The notes under the pieces are model-generated. The model had not been told where the DNA came from and made no database searches. It worked only from the letters and a program-made list of their open reading frames with translations. A program made the translations under genes and the position numbers. From Bryoerythrophyllum caledonicum (Eukaryota; Streptophyta; Bryopsida; Pottiales; Pottiaceae): a DNA stretch of 64,000 bases. Shown in pieces: positions 21,907 through 63,726 of this stretch (position 1 is the first letter of the stretch; each line of letters starts with the position of its first letter). The stretch spans positions 10,356,501 to 10,420,500 of the forward strand of contig OZ020517.1 in NCBI GenBank assembly GCA_963971425.1. The letters run 5' to 3'.

Positions 21907-22189
21907 GGGACTACTGGAGCTCTCCTTCCTCTGGGGCTGGCCCGGATCTCTCCTTCCTCAAGGAACTGCTGGAGCTCTCCTTCCTCCGGGGCTGGCCCAG
22001 ATCTCTCCTTCCTCAAGGGACTGCTGGAGCTCTCTTTCTTTCGGGGCTGGCCCAGATCTTTCTATTCTTTTGTATTACCGAAGGGTGTAAGTGGACGTAC
22101 CTTCCCTCGAGGTGGGCCTCCTCTTCTCTCGTATGCTGGCTCGGAGCTCCCTCGCTGGACCCTAGTGTTTGAAGGCTGGCCCGGAGCCT

Positions 22190-23180: not shown

Positions 23181-23791
23181 GTGTTGATCATCCTCGTCGA
23201 GGTCGTCTTTATTTCTGGAGGCTCGCATCTTAGGAACCTTCCGGATCTTATCCAGTCTCGCTTCTCCCCACCTTCCGGGCCAGATTCGGTTTCCTTCATT
23301 CTTCCGGGCGAGATTCGGTTTCCTTCCTTCTTCTGGGCCAGATTCGGTTTTGTGCGGGTTGGCCCGGATGATGGCATTCCTTGCCTCTTGGTCTTCTTGC
23401 GGGGTTAGGGCCCGAAGGACTGTTTTTAGGCTAGAGTCTAAGTCATAGCTCTAGGTCCCTTCTTGCCACTATTAAGACTTTTATAAAAGCCCCGTATTCC
23501 TCCTATCCTAATCTTATTTAAAGATTAATCCCGGGTGGGAATAACCTTCTAGCCTAACTACCTTACCTAATTTTAATACCTATATGTAACTAACTAAAAA
23601 AAAACGAAAAATTTGTGGTACGACAGCAGTCAACGTGAAAAAAATTATCCTCTGGATGGACACTTTATCCTTTGATGGTTGATTCATGTTTTAGGCATTG
23701 GCTACAATAAGGCTCTTCTCTACGATGTATAATACTACGTAGTATTGAAAGGTTTGGTGAAATATTTGAGATTTAATGAATTTGTGCTATG

Positions 23792-23800
23792 GATTAATGG
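23792..23800. repeat. Left target-site duplication of the MULE (GATTAATGG)
   Basis: This 9-bp word directly precedes the left terminal inverted repeat. It is identical to 43503-43511, directly after the right terminal repeat. Nine bp is the characteristic MULE duplication length. Confidence 0.9.
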
Positions 23801-23876
23801 GGGACGAAGCTATTTTGCGTGCCTTGAGCCATGAGCCATGAGCCATGAGCCATGAGCCGTGAGCCTTCGTTCGCGA
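23801..23876 (+). repeat. Left TIR of the MULE with TGAGCCA heptamer array
   Basis: After a 25-bp outer part shared with the right end, TGAGCCA occurs four times in a row, followed by TGAGCCG and TGAGCC. The right TIR has the TGAGCCG form, with fewer copies. Repeated short words inside a TIR are candidate transposase-binding sites. Confidence 0.85.
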
Positions 23877-24469
23877 GCCTATAGCTATAAATTTGGACCC
23901 TTTTTGGAAAAGAATATCATTAAAGTGAAAGTGAAAGTAAACAAAAAATAGTTAAAAAAAAGTGAAAGTAAACAAAAAATATTTAAAAATGAAAATTTTC
24001 CATAAAGTAACATTTCAATTGAAAGTCTTAACTATCATCTGAGGATAAGGGCCTATTATTGTGGAATTCCTTGTAAAGTATCGGTTGTAGTCCAAATAAT
24101 GAATTGTCACAAAGATGATAGGTACCCTATGACCGTGTAAGGGTTACACAACATATTGTAATAGAAGACATATTGTATATAGATTGTACTACAAAAGACA
24201 TAGTCTTATGTAATATGTCAATGAAAGAATCTTCGTGTTTGGAAGGAACGCTATATGCAGTACTCTTCTTGAGAAGAATTGTTCCCTCATAATCTCCCTT
24301 GGGCTCTACAACGACCACTACATTCTCTTGCCTCTCCGCTGTCCTGATGGAAATTCTTCCATCATGTACATACAAGTATTAGTCTTTATATGTGTGGATT
24401 TTAATAAGTAAGGAGTTGGGGTAAAAGGGGTTGGTCGTGGTAAGAACCACGGTTTGAGGATTTGGGCAG

Positions 24470-24720
24470 GTGTTAGCATTTAGGTGTTGCACCGTTCTTG
24501 TCACTGCTCAGGGGGGTAGGTAGCGGGTTGACTGGTATTTTTCCTGCCTCACTAGCGAGCCAAGCCGTGGGCCGCCGAACCACTCGACGGGCTCGATTGA
24601 GTTCGAACCCGGACCGGCGGCAGCCACTGACCACGACATTTCCAGCCAACCAAGTCCACGACTTGGCGATCAGGTTGTGCGAATCAACACCTTTATACGT
24701 CCATACCATCAGCTATCTTA
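24470..24720 (-). mobile_element. Possible tRNA-derived SINE
   Basis: On the minus strand GTCGTGGTCAGTGG, a box A-like word, is followed about 30 bp later by GGGTTCGAACTC, a good pol III box B. This is the spacing and order of a tRNA-type internal promoter. The plus-strand text after the opposite end is T-rich. No target duplication was identified, so the boundaries are approximate. Confidence 0.4.
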
Positions 24721-25962
24721 CGATAAGTTTTATTTTTATTTTTATTTAGTTATTTTTTTATTTTACTTATCTTGTTGGTTGGAAGGTCTAAGATTTTAGT
24801 CTTCCAATAAATAAAAGACTAGGAGATTTTATGTGGTTGAAAGTGGAAAAGATAAGAAAGTAATGAAGTACCTTGTGGGGTACTTTGGGTAGGGTGACAT
24901 GGGCTGAAGTGCCCACGTCCACTTGAGGTGGAAAAGTGGGAAAAGAGATTCCTTAGTTAGTGAGTGTGTGTGTGTGTGCGCGGGTGAGAGAGCAAGGGTT
25001 TGGAGCAGAACTTTGACTGTATGTAGCTCAGCGAATTTTGTTTGCATGGAATTGAAAATTGGAGGGTTTGTTCTTTGTCTTCAGAAATTTCTATATTCGT
25101 TTTAAAAATTGAATTTGGAGTTATGTAGCAAAAGTTATAAAGGTTTGTTTTTCCGTGAAAACCCGAGGCCATCCATTGAGAGGCAGAGGTTTGACAAGCT
25201 ATAACTTTTGCTGTAGTTCTTAGTTTTCTTTGAAATTTTGAGGGTGTATGCGTCTCTATCTTAGCTTTCTAGAAAGATATCACAATTGAAGTTTTGAGTT
25301 GTGAGCAAGAAGTTATAGAGATCTGAATGAATAGGGGTAGGCAGAACTTTGATTGTCCATAACTTTCGGACAGTAGTTTAGATTGACTTGAAATTTGGAG
25401 AAGTGTTAGTTGTCTGAATTAGCTTTCCAAAGAGCTATTATACTTAGTATTTGAAGTTTTGAGTCATCTGTGTCACTTGTTTGAAGGTTACAGCCTTGGT
25501 GAAACTTTTCCATTATATTTTTGAACACTTCTTTTGAGTTTCTTAGTGTTTTTGAACACTTGAAGACTTTGGAGTTGAAGGATGGAGGAATTGAAGACTT
25601 GAGGCTTGACTTGAAGAGAAGAGAAGATAGAGACAAGTGTGTTGTGGCTTGTGGTCCGATTTCTTTTTTTGTGATTCCAAGCCAGCTTTGGAGGCTAGTT
25701 GTATTTCAATTCTGTTCTTGTAAACTCTGTTGCGGCGAAGTGGGGTTAATTGCCTACACGGTCGTGTTTATGTTGTTCCCACCGGTGAGGCACGTTTGCT
25801 GGTCACCGTGGGTTTGAATTTTAGGAGCCAATCTTTCGGACGGTTTCAACTTGTGGTCTGGCCGTCCCGTTTTACCCGTCCGAGGCCGTGGTTTCTTATC
25901 ACCCACCTTTACCCTTAACCCTTTAGAGCCACCACAGGATAGGCCAACGGGGAGGAGTTTGA

Positions 25963-26004
25963 AGACTGAAGACTGAAGACTGAAGACTGAAGACTAGAGA
26001 CTGA
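25963..26004. repeat. TGAAGACT octamer repeat
   Basis: Perfect or near-perfect 8-bp units, five or more in a row, lie in the non-coding left arm of the MULE. Nearby, at about 26180-26260, a 29-bp unit (CTAGCAATTGCTCTATCAAC...) is repeated about three times. Confidence 0.8.
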
Positions 26005-29000
26005 AGACCTGAAGATTTGAAGATACGATTGGATTCCCGAGCAAACAATCTCCATCGCAGCCAGATTCCCTGCGAATTCTCAAGGCGCTCCCCTCTCTAC
26101 ACGACACCGCATTACTCGCATCGGCCATACGTGTCACAAGTGCAGCATCCGTACAACCTAATTCTCCTCATCATCCCTAGCAACCTTGTCTAGCAATTGC
26201 TCTATCAACCTCGTCTAGCAATTGCTCTATCAACCTCGTCTAGCAAATGCTCTAGACATCATCGAGGATGACAATCTCATCTCCACCAAAGTTAGCCATT
26301 TCTACAAAACTATTACGTAATGTTCCTCCAATACATTGTTGTAAACCTATACAATAGCAATATAGGGAAGGGGATGCAATCCTTATAGGTAGGGAGTCTT
26401 TGAATTTGGGGTAGAAATTCTTTTTAGGTCATACCAATTTAGTAAAAATTGAAGGATCCAAACACCACAATTAAGGTGGGCCAATAAAACCTTACTGATT
26501 ACACCACATAAACATATAAAAGCCTTGCAGATTAGTTAGACGTTAAAAAAGAACACAAATAAGACCGACAACTCTCAAAGGTAGTTGAAAATAAAGCGTT
26601 GGGGGGTGGTAGACACTCCAACATAGAGTGTTATTTTTTATCCACATCACGTCCCCTAGGTGCACCTTCCTGGTCGGGTTTTTTTTTACCTGGACAACAC
26701 TGCGAGCGGCGGTGCTATTTTCATTAAAAGCAACCGAAGAAGGAAACAACTCAACACTATCTTTCTAAACCCTGAAATCCTAAACCATGTCCACGATTCC
26801 AAGGATTAAACTATCTCGAACATTGCCACTAGCTACCTGCTATAATACAATAACATGAAAATATAAGAGGGCAAAGAGAAAAATTAACCACGTGGAAACT
26901 CAACCTAGGAGAACAAAATAAGCATGTAAAGCGGTCTGATGGGGGCGCGAATAGGCCAAGGCTATTGAAGTCTGTGAGGGAGGAAAAGTGAAGACGCACA
27001 GTTTAATCCCTAAGGTACCGTGACAGTTTCGCACCAATACACTTCAGAATTGTTTAATTCTAATGCAATGATTCAAGAAAGAAAAAAAAGCTTTCAGTTC
27101 TAGTTTTGACCAAAGGATCTCATATACGACTTATTAAGTAACATACTCACAAGATTTCACAAACTTTGAGCGCACGAAGTGCGCTATTATATTAATGTTT
27201 ATAGAAAAACAATTGGTTCATTTTTTTTCCACCGTTTAGTGGATTAGCAAACTTTGACTTCACTTGGTGTCAAATATTTTCACTACAGAAGGTGTAAATC
27301 CATTACCCTTTTGTTGAGCATGATGTAAGTTCCTTCTTCACCAAATTTTAGAGGTAGAGGAAAGGTGTGTAGCATATTCAAAACAACTATGGAAGGAGTG
27401 GAGGTTTGAAAATTGCCAATTTGTGTTCGCATTTTTTGTGAAAAAAATATGTTTTAGATTGATAATTCAAATGGTCAGTAAGAAGATTTCCACTACATAT
27501 TCTTGTGCAATACAAAATTGTCTAAAACATGAAGATCTCTAAGTTTTATGTGGAATAGATGAAGTGTGTTTGGTACCGTGCCCGACAATGTGTGACAATG
27601 TGTTAAAATGTTTTACTTGGGTTATTATGCTATTTTTCACGAAAGACAATGAGATATTTTTTCATTATGAAGGAACAAATATGTCTTGCATGTATTAAAA
27701 ATCTCACATTCAATAGTGTCCTAGCAAAAGTTTTTCGAGGTGCCCAAAGTGCTCGCTCGCCACGTTCGAAATTCAAAATCCTAAAACTTATTCATGAAAT
27801 GTCGGATTTAGGATAAAACTGATCTCCCACAAACGTCTTAGTAATGTCCTTCTACAATGAATGATTGGAGATGGATAAAACTCAACTCAAAATGTTGAGA
27901 TTTCAATATGCGTTACACTTAAAGTATGAATGGGTGGTAGTGGAGATAAATTGTCATTCCATTTCCTTGCTGAAATTCTGTCATAATATTTGACTTACAA
28001 TGAATTGCAATTCGTCGTTTGGCATAACATATATTTCTCAACACCAGTAGAATAGGTCATAATCTCCATTAGCCCTCAGTTATTATATGTGTTTTTCATG
28101 AGTTGTCACGGATTCTATACTATAAACATATGTAAGGATAGAGATTTAAAATTGAAGTCAATGTGTAGGTTGGAGTCCCAAATCAATTTTGACGAGATTA
28201 TGTCTTGTATTTACCATATTTAATTTACCAATGATAGGGCTTCAATTGACAACCCTACAAATTGTGCAACTCAACTACAACCACGACGACAACAATCAAG
28301 TAGAGCAAAGAACATGGCAAAGAAGGGGTATTGAATGAGAGTATTTGCAAAGCAAACAAAATAGCTACACTAGTGGTTGATATATTTGGCAAATATCTTG
28401 GATTGAAGAAATGTTAGTTTAACATGACATGTCCTCAGAGCTTTCATACGATGTAGAAATATAATGCAGCTCTACGTCAGCCTCATCGTCAATGAATTGA
28501 AGAACACGCCGATCAAAATAACGTTCTCTACTAATTGAACACGGGGATGATGCAGCTGCCTGCCTAAGGGCCTCTTCTGCATGCCATGGAGTCATTATGT
28601 AGTCTCGAGTGGGGGAACAAACGTTGGCCATCATTCTGCAAATGCCACAACCAAATTGAGGAACATGTGAGAAGGTGCCTCTAGAGGCCATATTATTCTA
28701 CACGTTGGGCTACAAATTTGAACATATTAAGGTAGAGACATTTAGAGGACTTCCAAATTAAAGATGGAAATTGATTGGAAGACAGAAGGTGCTTACGTAC
28801 TGAATCTATTGCGCTTAGCCACCGGTTGGATTTGGATCTCGTCGGCAAGGCGGGGACCAATGGACGAAGACGCAGTAGGCATAGGAGTATTAGGCATTAC
28901 TGCACGAAGAGGCTTCAATAAGGCCTCAAAGACATCATTGTCTTGCTCCAAAGCCACAATGTGGCGCCCAATGTCCTTGCATGCGTGAATAGAATTTCCT

Positions 29001-31469
29001 GACAAATGTGAAGTGTAGAGAATTGTTATTGTTTAATTGTGGATGCAAATTTAATGGATGAAAGTATATCAAAAGTATTACCTGTAGACGCGAACGCATC
29101 AAGGACAAGTGAGCCCGGCTTAGTAAGAGCTACAATGAGCATTCGCAGAACGACAGTATCCTTCTCGCAGGGACCCCTCCATGGGACGTTCCCATTCATA
29201 GATTGTGACTCTAGGGAGGTGTAGTTGAAAACAACATCAGAGTCGAAGACATCGACGTTTAATGCCGACAAAGTCTCATCTGGAGCAATAATGAAGTCTT
29301 CCGGCTGAACAACCTTGGGCACAAATAACTGAACCCTGAATCGTCGGGACTGTAAAAAATAAATGATAAAAGTGAGAAGACTGTATAGAAGTTGAGGTGA
29401 ATGTGTAGGAACTAAAAATTGATGAGAATGATGATAGTGTATTACCTTTACTTTTGGATCCACACTTGAATGCAACGGAAGCTCGTTTATACCCCACCAC
29501 TCCCGTAACATGTAGAAACCGTACGCATCGGCGTAGCTCAAAATATCGGTTTGGACCTTGGGACATTCAGGTGCAAAGGCCAAAATACAACCCTGACGGT
29601 GAAGAAATTCATGCCCAAACTCGAAAACAGACTCAACATCCTTTTTGTTGTAGTTGTTCCACATAGGAACGACAGTAGGCTGTAAAGAGATTGAAGGTAC
29701 CGGCATCCCATCGGGGAAGTCTCCAATGATGGGATTGAAGCCACTGTGCGGGCAAGCCTCCGAACGTTCTTGGATAGTAGTCAAAGCTTGGATCTGCAAG
29801 TATGTAGAAATCAAGGGTTAAACCATGCATGCAATCAAAAGAACGACTATTAAACACTAGTAGTCTTACCTCCATGCAGAACTTGTTCATGTTGGCAAGA
29901 ACCGGGTGCACTTGCGGTAGAGCATCCATTATCTTTGTGAGGCTTGTGTTTTCAATAAGCGTTGTGGACACAAAGTCCACGCTAGGCTGTTCGGTGGATT
30001 TTCCAGTGGCCATCTTCCTCTTCAATCTTTTGAAACCTATGGATACGGGATTAGACGAGTCCATTAACTGAATATGAGTAGCGGGGGAGATAGAGAGACT
30101 TTGCTGAGTCTCGGGGGGTGCTGCAGAGAAGGATGTCTCCTGAACATCATGATCATCAGCACCATCGAAGGGCAAAGCAGCATGCAGTTGCTGCCATCTT
30201 GGTGCTGCATCTCTTGCCGCGAGCTGTGCTTCCAAGGCTTCCGCTTTGCGTGATGCCGTTGCCTCTGCCGCATTTGCCGCTTGTAGCTTCCGCGCCACCT
30301 CTTCTTCGGCCTCCTTCAACTTCCTCGCGACCTCTTCCTTAGCAGCTTTCTTCTTCTTTGCATCTTCCTCGACTGCCTTTTTCCGTGCCCCTCTAGTCTT
30401 CTTCATGGGTGCTGTCACAACCGTGACCAACTCTGTTCCTGCTAGAGCAGGCTGAATAGAATTCCACAGTGGAATGTCAAATAGAGGTGGTCTATTCTTT
30501 GGACAATCTAAGTACCACCCACATTTCTTCCAATGCTCCCGATCCCAGTCCTTCATAATCTCCTCAGTGAACATGCAACTGTCACTAGTAGGATCCAAGT
30601 AGTTTGCGAAGAAAGGAGGAATTCTTGAAACTGCCTTCCTGGGAAGCAACACGTAATGGAAGTACCTAAATAAAGTTCGATTGACAGCCTCAGATAAGAA
30701 CTTCTGCTCATCTGGAGTATTGTTCTTAGAGACACCTTTGGTTGCCAACTCAGTGTTGAAAGCAATCTCCCAAAGCTGAATGCGCATCTGCTCAACCCAG
30801 TCAACAATAGTTGGAATGGCCTCTTCATCAACCGGATGGTAGTTGACAGTCTCGTTCAGTTCAGCCAATGTTCCATGAAGAAGATCGCTTGTTTGAGAAG
30901 AGATCTGAAATCACACAGATTGCATAAGTAAAATATACATGAAAGTATCAATCATGTGATAATTGGAAATTGTATGAAAACCAACACACCTGTGCCCACC
31001 AGGTAGCCCGAGTAGCCAAAGGGGGAAGTCGTGGTCATTGAATTTGGTCTCAGGAAATCTCACAGCTTTTCGAACAGGGGGCTTCATGTTCCACCGCTCA
31101 AGCCACTTAGCCTTCATCGCTGCAGACATCGCGGATGTTGCCAAATAAAACAACTTCTCTTGCAACATCTCTCGGTCATCTTCCCGCTTCTCATAATGGA
31201 TTTTAACCTGATTGAGAAAATCAGGCGTGTGCTTCGGGTCAGCCGGAGGCAACTGCTTCTTTACCTCAGTGACATAGTCCTTCTTCACCTTCTTCACCTT
31301 CTCCAATACTTCGTGATGCAAATCCTTCCTATTCCACTGAACTGTCTTCTCTGGATACTTCTCAATAAACATTCTGTTGGCATGCGCTGCTGCTTCACCA
31401 ATCTCTTGCTGAATTGAGATACAAAAATCAATAGAAAACGCTGTATAAGAGACTAGAGAAACACTACAA

Positions 31470-32160
31470 GATCCTCCAAAAGAAAGTGCCACCAACGGTA
31501 CCACCTTCAAAGGGGGTTAGAGGGAAGAACTCATTGTCACTCCAATGGAGGCGCCGCTAGCGGCTCCCCTATTCAGACTACCCAAAGGTACCTCGCAGCC
31601 TCTAAAATGGAAGTGTGGCCAGCGGCATTCACTCCACAGGATGCCTTGAGCAAGCCACTTGCACCTCATAAACGGTGGGCTGCTGGCAACACTCTCTCTA
31701 GACGCTTCCTCAAGGAAGCCATTAACACCTCAAGAAGAGGGTGCCGCTAGCGGCACTCTCTCTAAGGGGTGCCTTGAGCAAACCACTTGCACCATCAACA
31801 GGGATCGCAGTTGGAAACACTCCCAGTAGAGGCTGCCTCACGGAAGCCATCAACATCCATTAATGAGAGTGCCGCCAACGGCACATACTTTACTGGATAC
31901 CTTTAGCAAGCCACTTGCATCTCTAAAAGGGTGAGCCCCTGAAAGAACCCCTTCTACATGCTGCCCCAAATAAACCATCAAGATCATAAGAAGAGGGTGC
32001 CGCCAGCGGCACTCTCTCCAAAGGATGCCATGTACAAGCGACTTGCCCTCCAAAAGAATGAGTTGTTCGTACTATTTGCACTAGAGGCTCCCTCCAGAAA
32101 GCTATTAGCATTATGTAAAGTGAGTGCCGTTAGCGGCACTCCCTTCAGGGGGTGTAGATG
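31470..32160. repeat. 127/128-bp dimeric tandem array carrying a 16-bp palindrome
   Basis: Cores at 31486, 31613, 31741, 31869, 31997 and 32124 are spaced 127, 128, 128, 128 and 127 bp apart. The best copies read GTGCCGCYARCGGCAC, a near-perfect palindrome. Half-way between lie weaker cores (for example 31551, 31676), so the basic unit is about 63 bp and alternates two versions, one with GCCTTGAGCAAGCCACTTGC and one with TTCCTCAAGGAAGCCATTAA. The array sits wholly in the intron between exons 5 and 6 of the ParB-methyltransferase gene. Confidence 0.88.
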
Positions 32161-33616
32161 ACATGCAATTAACTCCACAAAGCCATTTCACTAAGAATGA
32201 TCATACATTTGACAAATAATGATTGTTAGATAAATGAAATGTAGTAGTAAGAGGTGAATAGTACCTGATATAGTACTCCAACGAGTCCTTTAACAGTAAG
32301 CGTGTACAATGTTGGAGTTCTATCCCGTTTCGCAATCGCATCATCAATTTCAGCCTTTGTCACTAGGTTCTCAAAATATGAGAGGGGTTGCCCAGCAATT
32401 CGTTGAATTCTATACAACTTGTGGACAAGGTTTGATTTCACGTGGCACCTCTGGTTCCGCCTGCAAATGGAGTGGATGGAGTTAAGGGACAAGGTAGACA
32501 ATTTTTACAATTTAGTAAATTTCATGAAATCAGAACTTACCAATTGACCTGGTGGAGTGCAGTCACGAGCGGTCCTGTCGAACCTGTTGGAACATCCAAG
32601 ATAATCGACTCCACTGCGTAGTGCCAATCTATGTCATCACTGTGGTCTCTGTTGATAATCTCCAGCCAAGCTTTGAGACGATGGTTCCCATCCCAAACAT
32701 AGAACATCTTACCCGAGTACTTCATCAAGTCTTCATCTGCCAGCAGTTGTGCCTCAAACTCGTCATTCTTCTTCTTCCACAATGGACTCTATCCAAGAAT
32801 AATCTCCTCGCTAACGTCAAGTGTCTTCCCGTGATTATTTTGCAGTGCAACATAGAAAACGCCATGACCCTCCATGTACCCGGTGCTCACAAAGTGAGCC
32901 TCTACAGAGCTAACGTCGTTTGAGAGAGGCGGCCTCACCGCCAATACTTCCTTCATTCTACAGAGAGGGATATCAATCTTGGACTTCTTTCGTGGCTTCA
33001 TCCGTAACTTCTCCAGGACAAGACTCGTGTTCACTGATTCCTGCAATACAAGTGAATCCATCTCTCTCCCCAAATCCTCGGCTGACATTTCCTCCCGAAG
33101 AATATCATCGGCGTTCTCATCCTCTAAATTGTTCTCATTGTCTTCATCGTCATTGGAATGGACACCTGCATCTAGAGATTGGTTAAACAAATGGAATAGA
33201 ATACAGAACTGCTTTTGATAGTATAGATGCATTTGCTACCTGAATTTTCACAAATTGGAGGTTGCACGTTGCCCTCTTGGTCGAATTCTCGTTCCACGCC
33301 CTCAAGCTCCATATCTGCAACAAAGCATTTGAGTTAACTTCAAGATTAAATGCCGACAGTCTAACAAACAGTCACGAATTGACATCACTGGTTTCCTGGT
33401 TCCACGAGTGAACATCACTGGTTTCTCGAATAATCATCACTGGTTGCACGAATAAACGAACTGGTTTCACAATTATACATTTCTAGTTTCACTAGTGAAC
33501 TTCCCTGGTATCCAATAACCATCACACGTTGAGAAAATTCTCGCACATTAAGTCGTCGCTGTAGAAGTACTGAATGAACAAAAAATACCGATTGTTAAAG
33601 TGCCGAATTCCACTAT

Positions 33617-33686
33617 GTTCGGAAGGACCCCTGTGAAGGAGGTGCCGCCAGCGGCACTTCCTTCACAGGTGTCCTCGAACCATGCA
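33617..33686. repeat. Hairpin with GTGCCGCCAGCGGCAC core (a)
   Basis: The arms around the core pair over about 30 bp: GGACCCCTGTGAAGGAGG on the left with CTTCCTTCACAGGTGTCC on the right. The right flank TCCTCGAACCATGCACCTGC also follows hairpin (b), so a longer unit was copied. Confidence 0.8.
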
Positions 33687-34794
33687 CCTGCCCGGCCATC
33701 CTACACTTCCTCCATTCGCGCCAAGAAGCAGTGTAGAGTCCAAGAGGACTCTCGACATTCTTATCCTTTGCAACAGTGCCCACACTTGTCTGTGCTAATA
33801 CCAAATCACTGTAAAAGCACTGATATCCCAGACATCAACATCCAGGTTCATGCAGAGTATTGCCTTAATGCCATGAAAATCATCTAGTTTTGGATCAAAA
33901 TATTTGAAGCTAACATTGACAACCTTCAGGACAAATCAACATTGTCACACACATGGTTACTTCAATACAAAATTCTAACAAATAACTGAGACACTGTCAG
34001 TCGACGAGTGAAAGCAATCTGCTCTCCCGATAAAATAATGTAAATCGCAGTGAGTGAGAAAACGTCGTTGCAGACAACATATCAGAGGTGTGAATGGTGA
34101 GTTTACTTTACTATATTTCAGCAGTAAAACTATTTGAAACCACGCATACATATTAATGAAATCGCATTTTGATCGATTCTTCGTCCTTCCTACCCAGCTA
34201 CATGAAAGGGATAACGAACAATCACTCTAAAAATCTGCATGTACAACGTAGAAAGGCATTTCGTTCGTGCCCTCATCACTTCGCTCAGACTACATATGAG
34301 GAGAGCCTTACATTACATTGCTTTCAGAGAAGAAAACACTCTAACCATACATTCGCACATGCATGTCAAGTTGGCTGAGATAAGCATTCTCAGCAGATCT
34401 CTGATAGATTAACCTCGCAAGTGACGAGGCCATCCTACAGTTGCTCCATTCATGTTTTCACTAGTGACAAGGCCACGAACCAGGTCAGGTTCACGGACCA
34501 GACCGCCTACAAATTCGGCCGCCATTCCAAGTAGAGACTCTTGAACAGGACTTGCTATTGTTCTCCCTCCTCGAACAGGACTTGCTATTGTGTATACAAA
34601 TGTGCTTTGTTCATATAATTAGGTTTAGGATTATCACAGTTGGTTCCACGTCCTCTTTCCAGCGACAGAACTGACATTTCTATTGCATGCATACATGCAC
34701 CAAGCTATGCGAACACGACAACCAGGTAATACTACGTCATGATTTGCACAAATAGAGTTTGTCAGAGATTATGTGCAACTATTCATTATTGCTA

Positions 34795-34876
34795 ATTTGG
34801 TAGAACACCTGTGAAGGAGGTGCCGCCAACGGCACTTGCTTCACAGGTGTCCTCGAACCATTCACCTACCCGGCCA
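34795..34876. repeat. Hairpin with GTGCCGCCAACGGCAC core (b)
   Basis: The arms ACACCTGTGAAGG / CTTCACAGGTGT pair around the same core as (a). The downstream flank matches that of (a). It lies in the large intron between exons 2 and 3 of the cargo gene. Confidence 0.8.
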
Positions 34877-35315
34877 TCATACCTAGGTCACGAGTGTATT
34901 TCAAGTTGGCTCCAAATCGAGCTGAATCTGAATCGTTGGACAAATTCAGCAGTTAGCTTGACAACTTCAAAGTTCAGCAGTTAGCTCGACAACTTCAAAG
35001 TTCAGCAGTCTATCAGTTAGCTTCTGCATCCACGTCGTCTGCTGAACTGCTAGGTATGATGGCCGGGCAATTGTGCACTTCTACGTATGATGGCTCACGA
35101 CTGCACTTCAACCTAGAAGTTGTCTGAATCTGAATCGTTGGACAACTTCTGCCTGGACGTGGACGCCAACAACGTTTGTTTAACTAAAAACAGCTTCGAC
35201 GTGAACGCCAACAACGTGGGTGTAACTAGCTTTTGCGTCGACGTGGACGTCAACAACGTTGGTTAAACTAGGTTCAGATTCGGCGTGGACGTGGGTTTAA
35301 CTAGCTTCTGCTCCG

Positions 35316-35913
35316 ATGGATGAACGTGATGCGGTCATCCTTCGCCACTACACCAGATCCCATCAGAACTCTGAAGTTAGGCTCGATGAACGTGATGCGG
35401 TCATACCAAGGCCACTACACCAGATCTCATCAGAACTCAGAAGTTAAGCGCGATGAACGTGATGCGGTCATACCAAGGCCACAACACCAGATCCCATCAG
35501 AACTCAGAAGTTAAGCTCGATGAACGTGATGCGGTCATACCAAGGCCACAACACCAGATCCCATCAGAACTCAGAAGTTAAGCTCGATGAACGTGATGCG
35601 GTCATACCAAGGCCACTACACCAGATCTCATGAGAACTCAGAAGTTAAGCTCGATGAAGGTGATGCGGTCATACCACGGCCACTACACCAGATCCCATCA
35701 GAACTCAGAAGTTAAGCTCGATGAACGTGATGCGGTCATACCAAGGCCACTACACCAGATCTCATGAGAACTCTGAAGTTAAGCTCGATGAACGTGAAGC
35801 GGTCATACCAAGGCCACTACACCAGATCCCATCAGAACTCTGAAGTTTAGCGCCTTTGGGCCGGAATAGTACTGGTCCAGGGTGACCATCCTGTCAGCCC
35901 CTGTGCTGCATCC
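35316..35913 (+). repeat. 67-bp tandem array derived from the 5' half of 5S rRNA
   Basis: Units begin GATGAACGTGATGCGGTCAT and start at 35319, 35385, 35452, 35519, 35586, 35653, 35720 and 35787: eight units, period 67 (first interval 66). Each contains the 5S-like text GGTCATACC...ACACCAGATCCCATC...AGAACTC.GAAGTTAAGC and then stops short. The last unit runs on into a complete 5S-like sequence. Some units share derived changes (CTCATGAG for CCCATCAG), so the array grew by local duplication. Confidence 0.9.
35795..35913 (+). rRNA. Full-length 5S rRNA-like sequence (probable pseudogene)
   Basis: At about 119 bp it spans a 5' GCGGTCATACC, the middle AGATCCCATCAGAACTCTGA, TTTGGGCCGGAATAGTACTG, GGTGACCATCCTG and a 3' end CTGTGCTGCATCC able to pair with the 5' end. 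TTTT follows at 35915-35918, a pol III-type terminator. The box A region reads GAAGTTTAGCGCC, with one change from the usual GAAGTTAAGC, and other positions are diverged. It lies on the plus strand within a minus-strand intron inside a transposon, far from any standard 5S cluster. It may be dead, or a transcribed 5S-derived (SINE3-like) unit. Confidence 0.7.
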
Positions 35914-35942
35914 ATTTTGATCTATAAAATAAAATCCAAGTC

Positions 35943-36140
35943 CAACGATTCAGATTCAACTCGATTTGGAGCTGGATCGACCACTATAATAGTTAATGAG
36001 TAACAAGTTTGTTTGGTAGATCCACTGTAAAGTAGGTGCCGCCAACGGCACTTGCTTCACAGTGGATCTACCAAACAAGCTTGTTACAGATTTATGATTA
36101 CAGTTGACGACCCAGCTCCAAATCGAGCTGAATCTCAATC
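35943..36140. repeat. About 195-bp imperfect palindrome with GTGCCGCCAACGGCAC centre (c)
   Basis: The inner arms pair over 40 bp with about four mismatches (TTTGGTAGATCCACTGT / ACAGTGGATCTACCAAA). Pairing resumes further out (ACTCGATTTGGAGCTGG / CCAGCTCCAAATCGAGCT, ACGATTCAGATTCA / TGAATCTCAATCGT). The outer arms differ from hairpins (a) and (b) but still pair with each other, while the core is the same. Confidence 0.85.
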
Positions 36141-36349
36141 GTGGCACTTGCTTCACAGATGAAGTATATTGGCCCTGTGAATGCCATGACGACAACTAAA
36201 TAGAACGTCACTGGTTGACGTTGACCGAAATCTACAACCGCAACTCTACACTAAGCATGTGAGTGCAACAAAAAATGTTACTAGAACTCTACATGATTTG
36301 TGTACGACACAATATAATGCCTCCCTGCATTGAAGGTTTCCTGTATTTG

Positions 36350-36960
36350 AAGTTAAGCAGAGTTTGGTAGACGTTTGGCGGAGTTTAATTGATGTTTAGC
36401 AGATTATTGTTGACCTTTAGCGGAGTATAATTGACGTTAAGCGGAGTATTATTGTCGTTTAGCGGGGATCTGTTGACGTTTAGTAGTCATTTGTTGACGT
36501 TTACAAGGGTCCCGACTCTTTAATCTCCCTCTCCCTTAGTCTCCCGACTCTCCTCTCCCTCTCCCTACTATCCAAACCCCTCCCTAAACCGACTCCTTAC
36601 TCTCCCGACTCTCTTACTGTCCCGACACGACCCTTACTGTCCCCACTCCTTCTTGTCCCCACTCCTTACTCTCCCTCTCCCATACAGTCCCGAGACGACC
36701 CTTACTGTCCCGAATCCTTTCTCCCCCTCACCATACTGTCCCGACCCCTTACTGAGCCGACTCCTTACTCTCCCTCTCCCTACTGTCCCGACCCCTTTCT
36801 GTCCCGACTCCTTACTCTCCGTCTCCCTTACTGTCCCGACACGACCTTTACAATCCCGACTCCTTCATCTTCCTCTCCCTACTGTCTCGACCAAATACTG
36901 TCCCGCACCCGACCCCTAACTGTCCCGACTTCTTACTGTCCCGACTTTGGAACAAAAGGA
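36350..36960. repeat. Short-word repeats: GACGTTTAGCGGAG, then CTGTCCCGACTCCTTACTCTCC
   Basis: 36355-36505 is built of imperfect units of TTGACGTTTAGCGGAGTATTA. 36515-36960 is pyrimidine-rich with many ACTGTCCCGAC and CTTACTCTCCCTCTCC units. Both lie in the first large intron region of the cargo gene and appear non-coding. Confidence 0.8.
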
Positions 36961-38214
36961 AACTAATAATCTTCACTATTTTGCAACTCCTAGTTTCGGC
37001 CTCTTGTCAGATCCATTCCGAAAAACACAATTTAGTCTAGACCTTTGCAGTTAAGATGTATGTGGATACCTTCATAATCAACTCGAGTAAGTCTTGCAAA
37101 TCAATGAACTTACCTGCCAAGAGATCCCTCGCACGCGATGAGTTACCCTTCCACCGTAGCTGCGTTTGAATCGCTCCTTCTTTGTCTGCGACAACAACAT
37201 GAATATATCTACCACCGTTTAACCTCCACACCTCTTTCTTGCAAATCAACATCAACAAATTTCAAGTTCAAAACCCTATTCCTTGTTCAAAACCCTATTC
37301 CAATATCCAAGTCGAAACCTAATTTCAGAGCCCTTTTCATAATATTACCTTCTGTCAATTCTGAACTGTGACTACGTACAACCTTCCTGCTCCACTGAAA
37401 AAAACGACCAGACACAGAACTGCGAGCATCCTCCTACAACGCTCTCAACCACGACCTCAAACACCAACAAGTGCTTTGACCAAACCCTAAATCAACTGCC
37501 TAAGTCATTAAACTTGAGAATTAACAATCACACAAGCTAACAACGAAGGAAAGTATTGATCTATCACTTCAACTGTAAAAAAACACGACTCACAATGTAA
37601 TAGAGAGTCACCAACATTACTTGCAAACTTCTCCAAGCTTGAAAACGACACAAAACTGTAAACTTAAGTTACATCTTCATAGCTGCAAATGAAAACTACT
37701 CAATCTATGGATTTCTTTGACTTAACTTCTAAACAAAATGAGCTAAAAGTTTTAGGGTTATGTCATCAAGTAAAAGGAACATAAACTTCTTGTTACGACG
37801 TCTGGTTCTCATGGTATAATTTAGAGAGTAAACATCTTGTTGCAGTTATTGACTTTACATGTACTAACGTCTAGAAGATTAATAATCATGCACATTACCT
37901 GATTGTAAAGGAGGTTGTCTTGAGAATGGGTCTCCAGATGCCATGTCTGCTCCGAGTGATGTGCTGCGACTCTCGCTTCTACTTGGGGACCCATGTTCCA
38001 GTTGTCCTGGGCCCTGGACAATCGCGGGAATACTTTCAAGGTCTACATTATCCTCTTCACTCATTTTCTCAGTCTGAACATCATGATCGAAGAACTCTAA
38101 CACTTTCGCCGTCTCACCAATCTCTGCAATTCTAGCACTCTGCTTCTTTTCTCTCATCACTTTGTTCCTCACCATGGTCTTCCTATTACTGAAACAAAAC
38201 TTCTTCTTTGGCAT

Positions 38215-38837
38215 TCTCTCACTGCTACCAATGACTCATTACTTTTGCATCCTAGCCAGACCACTTAACCAATCCAGGCAAACGTATATGCCAGTAAACC
38301 ACATCACTACCAAAAGATAATTGACTCAGCGGCAATCAAGATTTCCAATACTAATCTTGTATTGCCACCACAGCCACCTCCTTAACTAATTAAATGATGA
38401 ACCCTCGGCAAGATTTCTATTACTTTGCATCCATCACCTTTAACTGAATTAGATAACCACAGTTCTTATTCAAACACATAGCCGTCTTTACAACACTTTA
38501 TTGGGCTTACGTCCAAGATGAATCGTATTTACTGTATTCTCCCAAACCGTCCAGCCCGCCAAAAAGGATCTAAATTCTTAATTTTGATCAATATCTGACG
38601 TTGTTCCCTTCTGATCCAAATTAAGAACATAGAGGGCATGACTCAATTAAATAACCGATGGCGCCATTGAGAGCCAAATATCAATTATCGCTCTAGTGAA
38701 TAGATGCATATTACCCTCCGTTTCTTACCACGTAATTTCCTTGACCTTCAGGCTCTCGAGTGAAACCTATATAAGCCTCCTCATTCTCTTGTTTCTTCCT
38801 CTTTAAACTCTGTTGTGTTAATGTTTTGGTTATCGTC
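38215..38837. promoter_or_regulatory. Shared upstream region of the divergent cargo and transposase genes
   Basis: 623 bp separates the two start codons. On the plus strand TATATAAG at 38768-38775 lies about 63 bp before the transposase ATG at 38838, a good TATA-box position. No equally clear TATA box is seen for the minus gene. Head-to-head placement allows both element genes to be expressed together. Confidence 0.6.
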
Positions 38838-41800
38838 ATGGCTACTATTGAGGATCATCTTGTCCAGAGTGTACTCATCCGAGGAGATGTCCAGGAAGTC
38901 CCTATCTCATTCGATCTATCTGAGGATGGATATGCTGTTGTAAAGTCTAGTCGACTAGCTTCACGATTTCAGCTAGCAGAGAGAGGCTTGCACATTGACA
39001 AGGATGTTCATTATAAGGAGAGTGGAGAGATTTCCCATACTATAGCTCAGATCTCTAGTATTTGTGAGGATTGCGAAGTGTGGTTGTTGAAATCAGGAGA
39101 GTACCGAGTGTATGGGACAAGGATTAGTGAATCTGGTACTCCATCTGTAATGTTGACGCCTAGACAACCCCCAACTGTTGCAGAGGTGACACCGCTCTTG
39201 TCTAAGGTGAAAATTGAAGCCCCTGAAGATACCATCCTTATTCTCAGTGACGACTCCGACATAGAGTGCTTCCCTAGTACCCCAATTAGCACATTTCCAA
39301 AGTCGGAGCCTAGTCCACGAATTCCGATTGCGACTCCTTCTGTTTCTGCAGGCCCTTCCCGAATCAAACCACCCTTTGCACCGTCTAGACTAGCTCCTGT
39401 TAGTATAGTGGAATGCCTCCGAAGTCTCAGCACTCGTCAAAGAGCTAGGTCGGTATTGAGTAAATTAGATTATACTGCCATGACAATAGAACAGGTGAAC
39501 GTTCTTCCTGTGACTTTTGACGGTGACCGGATCTTTGAGCTTCCCTCACTAGGAAACTGCACGCGATCGTCTAAGGCTGGTCTTTTGGAGGGGATGGACA
39601 AAGCATATGACGGTAATGCCTGGACCTGGACAGTTACGTCCCACATTAAATCCGAGCACGATCTCACGTTTAGAATGTCCTCTTGTTTGGGGAATCTCCA
39701 GTGCACCAATCCCACCTGCGACTACGTGAGTCAAATCCATCGCACTTCTTCCAGGAATGAAACTGAATGGGAGGGCACCGCGGACTCTCCCTTTAATCCT
39801 GGTTGTGACCCCCCTCTTAACTCCACTGTTGTTTGTTCGGTCTGTCGGACCCCTCCTTCTTGCTTAAGAACGTGTCCCGCTAAAATTTACTATGTCCTTG
39901 GCCAGAGTCATCAGAGTCGAGCTTGTGTCCATCTGGGATTCCACAGTCATTTGGTTAGGACGGGAATTTGCAGGGAATCAGCACACATACTGAAGACTCG
40001 CATCGCAGAGCAGGTTGAGAGGACACCTACTACAACAAACTCGTCCATTGTCCTAGAGGCGAGCAAGGACTATCTTGGAGAGTTACTTCTCTGCCCTGAT
40101 GGTGTTACAAAGAAGACGTTGAGTTTTGTTGAACTTGTCCCACTCCTAGACAAATTCAAGCAGATGTCCTCTCCTAGTATCTGGAACGAGGTGACTACTT
40201 TTAGGCACCTCCGCCGTTACGGTGAACAGGATAGCATCACCAAGCTCAGAGGTTCTAACAACTGGGCCTTTGTACAGGAAAACCGCTTTCCGGGGCAAGG
40301 TAAAGAAGATGACAAGGTATTCATATTCAAGATGTCAGAATTGGGACCAGCGAGTGGCGTCGACCTGGTGAATCGAATGCAGCCTGGAGGTGATTTGGAG
40401 GAGTCGTGGATGATGTTTGACCACGTCAAGCGCCACAAGACATGGACTACGATGGCATGTCATGTGTACGACTCCACGTACTGTCGAGTGATGACAATCG
40501 TTGTGTGCGACATGATGTCCGAAGACGCCAATGCCCAAGTGCTATTTTGGAAGAATCTCAACGCAGTTGCTGCTCGTCACGACGTTGAAAATCCCAATTT
40601 CAAGGGATTCATGGCTGACAGCGCCCAATCGAACTGGATTGCAGTGCGTATAGTTTATGGGAATGGCGACAAGACGGTCCCCATGCCAAACCGAGAACGC
40701 ACGTGCCTTTTCCATTGGGTCCAATCTTTGGAAAAACACACACATGCTGATATCAGGGCAGACCTACGCGATCAACACAAGCGGCTCTGCAAACAATGTA
40801 AGGACTCTAAGTCGATAGAAGAGGCTGAAACAAAGTACCTTGCAATCCGCTCATGGTGGTTATCATCAGGAGCAGCAACAGAGGAGGGCCTCCCACGTCT
40901 TGATTTGTGGTTGGCGTTCTGGCATTTTCGATATAGACAATGGGGGGGCTTTATGGAACTCGTAAGTCTTCTGCACTAGTTATTCACCTTCATTTATTTT
41001 TTTCATCCTTACTCTTTTTCTATGATCATAAATACCCAGTGTACCCTTTTATGAAAGTGGTGCTAACAGCACCACCTCCAAGGTGGTCATTGTAAGAGTG
41101 TATGGTGACAAACCTTGACGGGTGCAGCTGGTTGAGTTTCCAAACAATGTTCACTTGTACGCCATGTCACATAATTATTAGTTGGAGCTAACATCTTGTC
41201 GTCTTCGCAGAATATGTCCCTATCCGAGTTGGCGGAGATGCCTTCTTGCAATCTTGCCGAAACCATCCACAACAAGTGGTTGCAATAATCAGGCAAGAGA
41301 GGCAATGATTTGTATGTGGCAACCGTCGATGACATGGTACATGCCTTCATGCAAGTTATTGGGTACTATCAATTTCTAAAGGGTGAGAAGGCCGGGACCG
41401 GACCAACCAAGGAAGAACTTCGACTACGTACCGCCCAACGTACAGTAGAGCGTTCTGGAAATGCAAAAGTTCTCCACGCCGCCCTTGCCAACATGCCTGG
41501 CGCTGCCACCTTCTGTACTCGTGAACCTCATCTTGAAGGTGAGGAAGTCTTCCTTTCTCTAAAACGAAAGGCTGACCTTCCTCCAGGTTCAGAATTCGAC
41601 TCCCACCGACCTGATAAGATTAGTGTATCACGGCCTCGGGTCAGAACACGACAGAGTAATCGCAAAATAGTGGACCTGACCAAGGAGGACTGCCCCCAGG
41701 AGTTGGATGCAGTGCCAGAGGTTGAAGACAACGTCCCGTCCAAGACTCCACCTTCTTCGCCTCCAATTCAGCATGTCAAAGCAGTTCAGAAGACCGTCTG

Positions 41801-42661
41801 CAATGAAAGGCAGTGGCATATCGCTAGACTCCACAGTCGATCTGCAAAAAAATGTTTTGCTCAACAAGCGCAAACAAATAAGAAATGCGTTGCCATGATC
41901 ATCCAAGATGGTAAGCCACCGCCGCCCCTACGTACATTGGTATCATGGATAATTTCAGGAAGGCTAGGGAAGAGATAATGCAATTTTTCTTTTGCAACGA
42001 CGACATTGAGCGATGTGTGAAGGGCACAAGACGGAGGTGGGTAATGACCAGGCCACAAGTACCAGACGTGTGGCCTATCAAGATGGGAACCACCCTCACA
42101 AAGAAGGAGATTCTAGCCTTGGAGAATGCGGGTTTTTGCCTAGCTAAACACGTGGAGCTTTCCCCTCGAAAGCTTTTTGTTGACGAAGTCGCCTCCCTGG
42201 ACCTCAAGGCCTATCCTACTCCTCCCAACCCTGACGAGCACCCTAAGAAGAGGTACGGTAAAAATATCCGCAGGAACGCCAATGCACCTACTACTAAGCA
42301 ACTCAACAGTTGCGCTTCTGCATTGTCTGTTGTTGATAAGATTTGTAGGATTCGTATGGTTCCCCCTAACATATTGGGTTGCATTGTCACCTTCGAGTCC
42401 AAATCCATTTCACAAGTATCAAAGTATTTGGTTACCATTGGACAGTTTCCAAGCTGCGAGTGTTCGGCGTTTACAGAGATGTCGAAGAAGTCACTTGGCA
42501 AACGTGGGGCGTGGACATACTGTAAGCACTTATACTACATCCTCAACATTATTTGTGGACTAGATCCGGAGGTAGATGTCTTCATCCACAGTCCTAGTTT
42601 TAGCTGGTACGAGATTATGCGGATTCTCCAAGTTCTGCTTCTAAAACATTATGGTCCTTAG
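38838..42661 (+). pseudogene. MULE-type transposase with GCM-like and SWIM zinc fingers, interrupted
   Basis: Exon A is 38838-40961 (708 codons), exon B 41211-41910, exon C about 41950-42661. A GCM/FLYWCH-like zinc region (CLGNLQCTNPTCDY...CSVC) lies near residue 295. The RNase H-like core follows: FDHVKRHKTW (first Asp), CDMMSED with Glu, GFMADSAQSNW (second Asp) and the C-x-x-H of CLFHW. A SWIM finger (CEC...CKH) lies near 42455-42530. These are in the usual MURA/FAR1-related order. Lesions: TAA at 41286-41288 in exon B where the frame otherwise continues (WLQ-stop-SGKRGNDLY), and an exon B/C junction off by one base with the obvious GT-AG sites. The ATG at 38838 is chosen over the out-of-frame ATG at 38821. 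It would excise and integrate elements bearing the TGAGCC-rich TIRs (inferred). Confidence 0.8.
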
Positions 42662-43430
42662 TAATCTCAAGTGTATCAGAACTTTACAATGTACTACTGC
42701 TCATTTATGAGAATGTTGTGAGACTACAAGGGCCACAGCAAGTGAGTTTTAAATAACATACCTCACTACCCTAAACCCTGCATGCACCATTTGATGATGG
42801 AATATACTTCCCCGCTACATTACACCCAATGCCCTCATCTATATCACTTTCTCTTGTCCATCCACGCCCTAAATCCTCAACCCTAAATCCCACCCATACC
42901 TACTTCTTATTCTAAATTCTCCTTCTCCCTATTTATCCCTATTCTAGACTCTCCATTTTCCTACTAATCTCAAAGTCTCTCTCCAGCAATCTCTAGACCT
43001 GCTTATCCGTGTCCATGAAATATCCTCATCGTAATTTCCCTTATCCTCAATTCTCTCCATCCTGAACTTTCCGATTGTCTTTTTGTCTTATCCAGAACTC
43101 TCAATAATTCTCCGCGACCATAGAATATTCCTCTCCAAAATTGTCCTTAAACTAGACAAGCCCATCTCCTTAATTGTCTCTTTCGAGACCACTCCCTCAC
43201 CGTGATCATCCACATCCGGACCTCTCCTTCTCCCTAATGATATATAAACCTAAAACCTTTAGTTCTGTACGTGCAAATGTATAGAGTGTTCCATCGTAAA
43301 TTTTTACAAAAATAACTATAAGCATTGAAACTTTTGCTATTTAATCCACGGTAATAGGTCCAAGTTTTATATTAAAATTTGAAATATCTTCATCGAAAAT
43401 TATTATCTTTTACTTTTTTCTCTAACTTTT
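42662..43430. other. Non-coding right arm of the MULE
   Basis: No gene is visible. 42780-43240 is pyrimidine-rich (CTCTCC/ATCCTC words), resembling the low-complexity stretch at 36.5-37.0 kb. The remainder is AT-rich up to the right TIR. Confidence 0.6.
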
Positions 43431-43502
43431 TGGCTTTGGGCTCACGTCCAAAGGCTCACGGCTCACGGCTCACGGCTCAAGGCACGCAAAATAGCTTTCC
43501 CC
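43430..43502 (-). repeat. Right TIR of the MULE with TGAGCCG heptamers
   Basis: Read on the minus strand it starts GGGGAAAGCTATTTTGCGTG, then CCTTGAGCCGTGAGCCGTGAGCC..., matching the left TIR apart from a short indel near the tip and the A/G difference in the heptamer. Confidence 0.88.
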
Positions 43503-43511
43503 GATTAATGG
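43503..43511. repeat. Right target-site duplication of the MULE (GATTAATGG)
   Basis: Identical to 23792-23800. Confidence 0.9.
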
Positions 43512-46029
43512 GAACAGATATGATACTATATATGTGTATTTCTCTCCTTTGATTTATAATAAATGTGTTTTGATTTGTGTTTATATTGATTAGAATTATC
43601 CTAATATTGAATTGTCGAATTATAATTATTTATATATATATATATATATCTATATATATATATATTCGTGCATAATATGACTAAGTGGCTCCAACGTCAT
43701 TTCTTTATATGAAATTTAGAACATTATATCGTGTATATTAACATTAATGGTCACGAGATAATATATTATGTAGTTGACAATTAGTTGATATTTCACTATC
43801 GCTTTAAAGTATGCTTGAGTTTAATGTTGAAAGAAATTCAAAATATTTAAATTTGATGTTTCTTGAAATATTGTATATTTCAAATAGTTTTTGTATTGAG
43901 TTCTTTATTAATATGTAGGGAAGTATGATTTTATTTGTAAAGGTGAGGGATATAAATGGATGGAGTTGGTTTCAAGTGCACCGAAGTCATCAAGCAAGGG
44001 GTGCAATCCGCCCATGGTTGCTCGGGGCCTTGTCTTCAAAGGATTAAACTTATATATAAAGCAAGGTTAATCTACTATGAGTCTTAATCTCTTTTCTTAT
44101 TTGTAATGATTAAAATTAGTTCTAAATAGTTTTGAATATGTTTAATCAATTCAGTGAATAGAAAACAGCTAGAATTATGGTACAATATGACTTCTAAGGG
44201 TAGGGAAGGTAGCAAAAAACACTTATCAAGTTTAGTTTAATTCCTAAAGATCAAAAGTCTTGAGGTGAGCTTTTAGTGATTTTGGGTAGCTTACACTAAT
44301 GTCAATTTAGATAATTGATTTTTACATTTAAATTGGAGATATGGGTTAGTAGTAGCTTTGTAGGGGAATTATTCTGAAAACAAACACATAAAACTAAGAT
44401 GACAAGGTTTTGAACTTCAAATAGAGACAACGCATATGACATGCAGGGTATTACAGAGCTTTCCTTAAGTAAATGGCTACATTCTATATCCTTGGTCATT
44501 GGAAGTCCATTCTTTTATCCTGAACGCCTCTATCACTCACGATTTTTAGCGTGCAATGACTTTCATAGATTTGTAAATTTATGCACTGTCTAGTCATTAC
44601 CTTAATGTTGGCTTTGCCACAATTAAAAAATCATATTGCATTCTTCAAATGCATGTGGTTTACAATCCTTGCGGTCAATTTTACAAAAAAAATTAGTGTG
44701 TTTTTGTAGTATTTCACTTGGAGATCCCAAGGTCAAAATAGTAAAAAAAATATTTCAATTGGTTTTGCAATGACTCGTCTTAGATAAACAATCATTGGGT
44801 CCTTGAGTGAACATAGTCTTGCTTCTTAAAGTTTAAAAACCACCAATCTTTTTCACCAATGTGATAGACTTTAAGAATAAGAAAATTGTAAACTAATAAA
44901 TTAAGAATAAAGACATTGATAGATATCAAGAATAAATAAATTATATTGCAACAAATTAAACATTTAGTATCATAAAATGAATCAAATTGTCTCTTATTAA
45001 AACTTTGCTTAACATTACAAATATCTCTAGCAAAACATGTATTGTATAAAATCAATATTTAAATGTGTTTTATGTTCAAAGCATCTAAAATTGCACTATG
45101 TAAGTCAGTAATTGAATTATATATTGATTTTGATTTTAGAATTTCTTTTTAAATGGATAATACTAATTTCTTATACTAATAAGGTAAATACCTAAAAAAT
45201 TTCCATACAATATATTTAATCATGTTGATTTATTTGGAATATATGAAGTTATTTACTTCATAAAATTAATTGGACCTAAAAATACTATAGAATGGTGTAA
45301 AGAACCTAATGAAGATTTACATCTTAGAACAATATGTTTTTTGAAATCTTATGATTTCAAACTATTTACAATGTTTTAGATATTGTAGCTAAAATGATAG
45401 TTTTAGTATTACCAGTCAAATTGAACATATTTATTTATTAAACATTATTCTTATTTGAATTTACTTCATGAACTTTTCATTGATCAAAACATATCTAAAG
45501 AATATTTAAAACATTATATTATGATGTATACATTCACAAAAATAGATTTAAAATCATAGAAGTGACAATTTGTCATATGTTTAGTCTTCTCAAGTGTTTT
45601 TCATTTCTATTGGTTAGATTTTTTCATTTGTTTATTATGCTTTACAAAAATGATACATTCAAAAATATATGTTGTTAACATGGATTTGAAAAATAGTTGT
45701 ACATGTTTCATTATTTGAAATATATTGGAATGATCGATGATATTGTCTTGAAAAGTATAATGTATTTGATGGCATGAAACATTATTTGAAATTTTGTATG
45801 GTTTAAAACATATATATGTGTTCAAAAATTGATGTATCTAATAATAAAATCCAAAGTAACATTTTTCAACCTAATAATATTTCATAATCTTACCACTTCA
45901 TATGGTTATTGAAACTAATATAACTAACATCTTAGTCCATTATATTAACTTTTGTGATAGGTTCACGATTACCAAAACACTTGAATATTTTAAAGCTTGA
46001 TGCTTTTTATCATAAATGTGGTATAGAAC
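43512..46029. other. AT-rich spacer between the two large elements
   Basis: No gene is supported. A TATATA microsatellite lies at about 43634-43665. The rest is AT-rich with only short chance ORFs. Confidence 0.6.
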
Positions 46030-50597: not shown

Positions 50598-50689
50598 AAC
50601 GCAACACTCAAAAAACCTGTATATCATTACAAAACGATAGTCACTATTAGTATGGAATAAGAATTTTTGAACCACCACTCATTGCACAA

Positions 50690-51720: not shown

Positions 51721-51994
51721 CACAAAAACAAGCAATTTTAATGATATTTGGGTTAGATATTCTCTACATTATTTATGGACCAAGGTACTTGGGGTATCAA
51801 TATCTAGGGTATGACGACCAGGGTATGAGCTCCTTGGTACCACAAGCGGTTATCAACTGCTGTATCAAATTAGGGTTTGGATTAGGGTTTCGGTTACCGG
51901 GTATCAATAAGGATATCAATCCTTTGCTCAAGTGGGTAGTCCTAGGAGGGGTGTGCGCGCGCACACCCCTGGTAGAAGTTGTGATGAGGCTGTG

Positions 51995-52210
51995 AGTGAG
52001 AGGGTAGGGTTAGGAGGAGAGAGACAATGTGTGGGAGGTGTGAGGAGATGTGTGGGAGGTGTGAGGTGATATGTGGGAGAGGTGTGGGAGGTTTATGTGG
52101 GCGGGGAAGGTGTGAGGGAGGGGAGGAAGTTGTCGGAGGTGTGAAGGAAGTTGAGGGACGTGTGAGGGAAGTTGTGGGCGGCAAGGGTTTAGGAGAGAGT
52201 GGATGAGGGA
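51995..52210. repeat. GTGTGGGAGGTGTGAGGA minisatellite next to the gap
   Basis: Imperfect G-rich units of about 20 bp (TGTGGGAGGTGTGAGG) run up to the assembly gap. This kind of sequence probably caused the gap. Confidence 0.75.

Positions 52211-61430: not shown

Positions 61431-63726
<2,296 letters not shown>

Follow-up and report, generated by a model that had tools for sequence, protein, structure and literature searches.

A giant Mutator-like transposon family of the moss Bryoerythrophyllum caledonicum with a ParB-methyltransferase cargo gene and candidate recognition palindromes in its own DNA

Genes that join a ParB-like domain to an amino-methyltransferase domain are already in print for algae as a class of transposon cargo, and so is the idea that their products bind and modify the element that carries them (PMC12477816). 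In the passages of that paper that deal with these genes, one is carried by the 21.5-kb Sola1-1_Ec32 transposon of Ectocarpus, the class extends to green and red algae, and the Sola1-1_Ec32 cargo is the one proposed to act on its own transposon. In the open-licence literature searched, it is the only paper found that reports a transposon of a eukaryote carrying a ParB-methyltransferase. As characterized in those passages, Sola1-1_Ec32 resembles the moss element treated here: both are giant DNA transposons with the cargo on the strand opposite the transposase, and the cargo has about 1100 residues with ParB-like and amino-methyltransferase domains. They differ in the host, a moss here, and in the transposase, which is of the Sola1 type in Ectocarpus and Mutator/IS256-like here, and the two systems are likened by description, not by sequence.

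The moss element shares with Mutator-like elements (MULEs) its terminal inverted repeats (TIRs), 10-bp duplications and an IS256-like transposase fold. A CxC...CxH arrangement recognized by eye at the transposase C-terminus (CECSAF...YCKH) may correspond to their SWIM-type zinc motif. The element departs from them in that no Pfam model, those for MULE and SWIM included, gave a match at E <= 1 to the window pieces of the transposase or to its full-length relative P0001. The cargo is presumably not a mudrB, VANC or ULP1-type gene.

Bacterial ParB acts as a dimer at 16-bp parS palindromes. The moss element is similar in having a ParB-like box and clustered 16-bp palindromes in its own replicon. 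In contrast to the bacterial system, the palindrome has a different sequence, the box is fused to a methyltransferase fold, the setting is a eukaryotic transposon, and binding is putative. New here are the Mutator-type carrier, the evidence of selection, the palindromes and a motif IV that is altered yet conserved, none of which was found in the open-licence literature searched.

Ends and genomic copies of the element

The window is the whole 64,000-nucleotide stretch of DNA analysed. It encodes an ABC transporter whose nearest solved structure is plant ABCB19. The transposon spans positions 23802-43502 (19,701 bp), with ends set by alignment with ten other copies; this comparison gives termini of GGACGAAGC... 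at the cargo side and GGGGAAAGC... at the transposase side. The left TIR (23802-23865, plus strand) begins GGACGAAGCTATTTTGCG and passes into GAGCCATGA tandem units, and the right TIR (43439-43502, minus strand) begins GGGGAAAGCTATTTTGCG on that strand. They include an exact 22-bp inverted pair, 23809-23830 on the plus and 43474-43495 on the minus strand, where 100 shuffles gave an expectation of 0. When extended, this pair grows to 59 nt at 88%.

The preliminary description had proposed a unit bounded by matching TIRs, which the exact inverted pair and the termini shared by ten copies bear out, and a target duplication of 9 bp, which had to be corrected. The 9-mer GATTAATGG, found at 23792 and 43503, is weak evidence alone, as it occurred twice per window in 22 of 100 shuffles, and it was accepted because of its place at both ends and the comparison with other copies. 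Once the ten copies were compared, 9 bp gave way to an exact 10-bp duplication, GATTAATGGG, at 23792-23801 on the left and 43503-43512 on the right. Composition and repeat analysis gave no sign of an artefactual origin of the unit.

The host genome was searched over 437,360,962 bases in 894 contigs. The 22-bp TIR word is found at 210 places with <=2 mismatches, and its reversed control at 0. Ten copies, chosen as facing TIR pairs 17-19 kb apart from the first 100 TIR places listed, were fetched whole. They are 17,052-18,935 bp long, and all ten have the same termini and both genes in divergent orientation; in each, as in the window, the transposon encloses the cargo, and cargo and transposase are on opposite strands. 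Their 10-bp duplications are private (eight exact, one with 1 mismatch, one with 2). With the window included the duplication is exact in 9 of 11 copies, at a length within the 8-11 bp of MULEs. Two shorter TIR pairs, S1 and S2, are diverged and internally deleted relatives. By tblastn, each retains residues 248-1056 of the cargo, whereas of the transposase just the C-terminal part is left. The 10-bp duplication of S2 is exact.

Cargo exon 4, used as a query against the genome, gave 1704 candidates; 150 of these were scored and entered in the list, so that counts from it are lower bounds. Among the matches listed, 20 of the 22 with at least 75% identity lie within 20 kb of a listed TIR place. 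On contig C1, for which all TIR places are listed, the same proximity is seen for 9 of 18 listed cargo matches, with 0.27 expected and a largest value of 2 in 2000 draws. The remaining nine are unexplained by the 22-bp TIR word and may have other ends. The preliminary description had pointed to two outcomes as contrary to it, and neither was observed: the copies do not end at different TIRs, and the cargo is not found widely outside elements at >=75% identity among the matches listed. The window contains one dead copy of a giant (17.1-19.7 kb) Mutator-like transposon family with many copies. Of the element's anatomy, together with the selection described below, we are nearly certain.

Transposase, cargo and the selection acting on them

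The transposase gene lies on the plus strand at 38838-42661 (exons 38838-40961 and 41211-42661). The predicted structure of its relative P0002 has the transposase of IS256-family ISCth4 as nearest solved structure, as expected of a Mutator-like element, and by this modelled fold the protein is an IS256/MULE-type DDE transposase. In the window copy an in-frame TAA stands at 41286-41288, a position at which relative P0001 reads Gln, and the frame shifts between 41910 and 41948. To explain this change of frame, an intron of 48 bp at 41911 was considered and rejected: 48 is divisible by three, and 8 of the 10 other copies match in a single frame there.

The cargo gene occupies 28793-33312 on the minus strand. 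The splice model predicts eight exons (33312-33240, 33165-32541, 32460-32265, 31408-30986, 30904-29870, 29793-29446, 29349-29082 and 28998-28793) with 1057 codons and one in-frame stop, a TAG at 32789-32791. In addition, one base near 31013 is missing from the window copy but present in all ten others, which accounts for the poor donor of exon 4 in the model. The preliminary description had recognized both a Mutator-type transposase and, divergent from it, a large multi-exon gene with ParB-like and amino-methyltransferase-like parts. The P0002 model, the eight-exon structure and all ten copies agree with it; what it had not stated is that both genes are broken in the window, each by a stop and a frameshift.

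The sole full-length homologue of the cargo found in the searched database is Ceratodon purpureus M758_11G066700 (P0059, 1084 aa). It aligns along the length of the cargo at about 24-25% identity and has in common with it the ParB-like box VWDGNHR and the motif I and motif IV regions. With P0059 as query, the search returned P0059 itself only. Its AlphaFold model has a pLDDT of 40 and was excluded from use. The ParB assignment of the cargo is based on the short box and the alignment with this homologue, and the best ParB-like profile match, phrog_1033, is weak (E 0.12). For the methyltransferase part, a two-sequence profile of the motif I region matches DpnA (8.4e-5), CcrM (9e-4) and RsrI (1.7e-3), and PHROG methyltransferase profiles match as well. 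In the comparison with Pfam that had been proposed, PF01555 scores 19.6 and 24.1 bits, below its cutoff of 26.7. Phage enzymes show weak similarity to P0059, confined to its methyltransferase part (81 records, E limit 1).

The usual motif IV of amino-methyltransferases is DPP(Y/F/W). Motif I can be recognized in P0059 and in every one of the 11 copies. Motif IV reads DFPD in all 11 copies, DIPE in the diverged locus L036 and DTPD in P0059, so that the canonical (D/N/S)PP(Y/F/W) of active N6A/N4C enzymes is absent from every sequence where motif IV was located. A pattern search for the motif gave no match in loci L034, L035 and L037 or in S1 and S2. In a phage enzyme, the residues aligned with the cargo motif are DLPY. 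On these sequence features the cargo is a ParB-like box joined to a predicted beta-class amino-methyltransferase domain with a non-canonical motif IV, and the alteration could mean that methylation is absent.

A viral or phage origin of the element was also considered and rejected. Among viral_contigs, 231 pattern stretches were obtained for transposase relatives and 0 confirmed, and 244 stretches yielded no cargo relative; no transposase relative was found among phages.

Selection was measured as pN/pS pooled over all 55 pairs of the 11 copies, with the wrong frames as control. Splice sites of the copies were taken as in the model, the last 28 nt or so of cargo exon 4 may be misframed, and 38 nt of the transposase round its frameshift were left out. 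The cargo has a pN/pS of 0.22 (1.10 and 1.36 in the two wrong frames) and the transposase one of 0.26 (1.19 and 1.04). By part, the cargo values are 0.12 for ParB, 0.18 for the middle, 0.35 for the linker and 0.185 for the methyltransferase. By alignment, 4 of 11 copies are free of stops and frameshifts in the cargo, 4 of 11 in the transposase and 3 of 11 in both. Purifying selection acts on the cargo, and to a degree similar to that seen for the transposase. That it belongs to the element, as first proposed from the window alone, is upheld by this selection and by its presence in all ten sampled copies. The gene was retained by such selection as the family multiplied, and so it has been of use to the element or its carrier.

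Palindromes in the element and their possible function

The element contains palindromes of the form GTGCCG-N4-CGGCAC. In the window, GTGCCGCTAGCGGCAC with <=3 mismatches has eight matches, all within the element (0.08 expected), seven of them with perfect arms. In cargo intron 3 (31409-32264, minus strand), a period-128 array carries strict palindromes at 31741, 31869, 31997 and 32124 and weaker ones at 31486, 31551 and 31613. Another, GTGCCGCCAGCGGCAC at 33642-33657, precedes the start codon of the cargo by 330 bp and is present in all 11 copies. GTGCCGCCAACGGCAC occurs twice in the intergenic DNA between cargo and transposase, at 34820-34835 and at 36036-36051, the latter at the centre of an inverted repeat of 2 x 105 nt. 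A decayed palindrome, GTGGTGCTAACAGCAC, is found in the transposase intron at 41057-41072.

Each of the 11 copies has 4-7 strict palindromes, and both cargo intron 3 and the DNA upstream of the cargo contain them in every copy. Four copies (E4-E7) have a transposase-intron palindrome with <=1 arm mismatch. Arm identity over the copies is 0.94-1.00 at six of seven consensus sites, against 0.76-0.88 in nearby flanks; at the seventh, with arms at 0.70, there is no conservation, and the weaker palindromes are not conserved above background. Mean background arm identity is 0.80 (0.77 for CpG-bearing windows), and the mean observed was not attained in any of 20,000 draws, a test that serves as a guide only, since background windows overlap and the intergenic alignment is partly uncertain. 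CpG retention in palindromes is 0.91 (13 positions) and 0.88 (6), compared with 0.59 (6) and 0.70 (142) for the other CpGs of these non-coding stretches. The one palindrome CpG of the transposase intron is kept at 0.64, against 0.69 elsewhere. Intron 3 palindromes sit in a tandem array and are not independent of one another.

Genome-wide there are 974 strict palindromes, each counted once, and 0 for the reversed-pattern control. Eight palindrome loci on contig C1 (L034-L041; four clusters and four isolated sites) were chosen with TIRs ignored. All eight lie in diverged relatives, with homologues of cargo, transposase or both that are mostly 33-63% identical to the query, short stretches being higher. 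Five loci (L034, L035, L036, L037 and L040) have palindromes between the exons flanking intron 3, and two (L035 and L039) have them in the transposase intron. Those of L035 and L041 include palindromes upstream of the cargo, and one palindrome of L038 falls between cargo stretches 595 and 783. S1 and S2 have palindromes in intron 3. On C1 below 29.73 Mb, the stretch for which strict palindromes were listed, 8 of 10 listed exon-4 matches have no strict palindrome within 5 kb, and the two that do are both of the window's subfamily. The sites therefore do not accompany the whole cargo family, and the large cargo subfamilies of 57-62% identity seem to lack the strict form. As judged from conservation and position, the palindromes are probably functional sites.

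The preliminary description had suggested a DNA-binding or DNA-modifying role for the cargo. Selection supports a use, and candidate sites have now been found, at which binding by the cargo is inferred. The ParB-like part, as a dimer, would bind GTGCCG-N4-CGGCAC in the element's own DNA, and the methyltransferase-derived part would then mark or occupy the element. With motif IV altered, marking might be non-canonical or achieved by binding alone. Marking or occupancy could tune the expression of both genes or shield both from host silencing, and the cargo would act as a cis-recognizing accessory protein. That the cargo, rather than the transposase or a host factor, recognizes the palindromes is a suggestion by analogy to which we give slightly less than even confidence. 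The full reading, a self-recognition module in which cargo and parS-like 16-bp palindromes in the introns of both genes let the element label its own DNA to control or protect expression, is put forward tentatively.

Other explanations would assign the palindromes or the cargo differently. The palindromes might be internal sites of the transposase, acting as a dimer with a putative GCM-like zinc domain in synapsis or in autoregulation of both genes, while the cargo acts elsewhere; we regard this as unlikely. They might instead be RNA elements (intronic hairpins or small-RNA precursors) or a nested repeat. In favour of this, many are intronic, and some centre longer inverted repeats (35937-36150 and 33624-33675). 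Yet palindromes are present in intergenic DNA too, the conserved unit is two 6-bp arms around a variable 4-bp centre, and the flanks of array sites and upstream sites are unrelated, which makes an RNA or repeat origin rather improbable.

For the cargo, it is doubtful, to about the same degree as for transposase sites, that it is a dead methyltransferase fold, serving as a DNA- or SAM-binding scaffold or in a host function with no marking of DNA. The form DxP[D/E] in every sequence where motif IV was located speaks for a dead fold; against it stand the persistence of motif I in copies and homologue and the purifying selection on the methyltransferase domain. Mutator-like elements can capture genes, and the cargo could be a host gene acquired by pack-type transduplication and useless to the element, a view with which the single full-length moss homologue in the searched database is compatible. 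Its presence in all ten copies and in diverged subfamilies, under constraint like the transposase's, makes capture very improbable.

The moss family has something to add to the algal case. The algal proposal, in the passages that set it out, names no DNA site (PMC12477816), and this large family supplies a candidate site and evidence of selection. The cargo class is shown beside a transposase of Mutator type, here with a catalytic motif that is altered and kept under selection, and the idea of self-recognition by the cargo can now be tested directly.

Sequence surrounding the element

The Mutator-like element (23802-43502) is surrounded by ordinary host genes, represented by exons of a B-type ABC transporter (7370-13260) and a rRNA adenine dimethylase-like exon (62837-63319). 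Immediately to its left lies a GC-rich repetitive block (22160-23187) in which several frames are open on both strands. Two long, adjoining ORFs occupy the + strand at 55799-58876; the second matches DUF7869 (E 2.2e-38), and the pair is possibly another mobile element.

Repeats within the element

Between the cargo (ParB-methyltransferase) and transposase genes there is a 67-bp tandem repeat (35319-35851; 8 copies, 94% matches). An 850-bp stretch inside the element (27003-27854) has 74-77% similarity to right-flank repeats at 50660-55484 and is a putative host repeat or nested insertion.

Relatives in the host genome

Two shorter, diverged relatives with internal deletions, S1 and S2, are candidates for elements moved in trans. 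In both, the GTGCCG-N4-CGGCAC palindromes are still present and the cargo survives over its C-terminal two thirds, and the transposase is mostly gone; the ParB part of the cargo was not found in either by tblastn. Among the matches listed for cargo exon 4 in the host genome (150 scored out of 1704 candidates), several share a score of 165.7 bits (62%), for example C1:8975191, C3:34004741 and C4:17383241. Such equally scoring matches suggest a sister subfamily of the element that was amplified recently.
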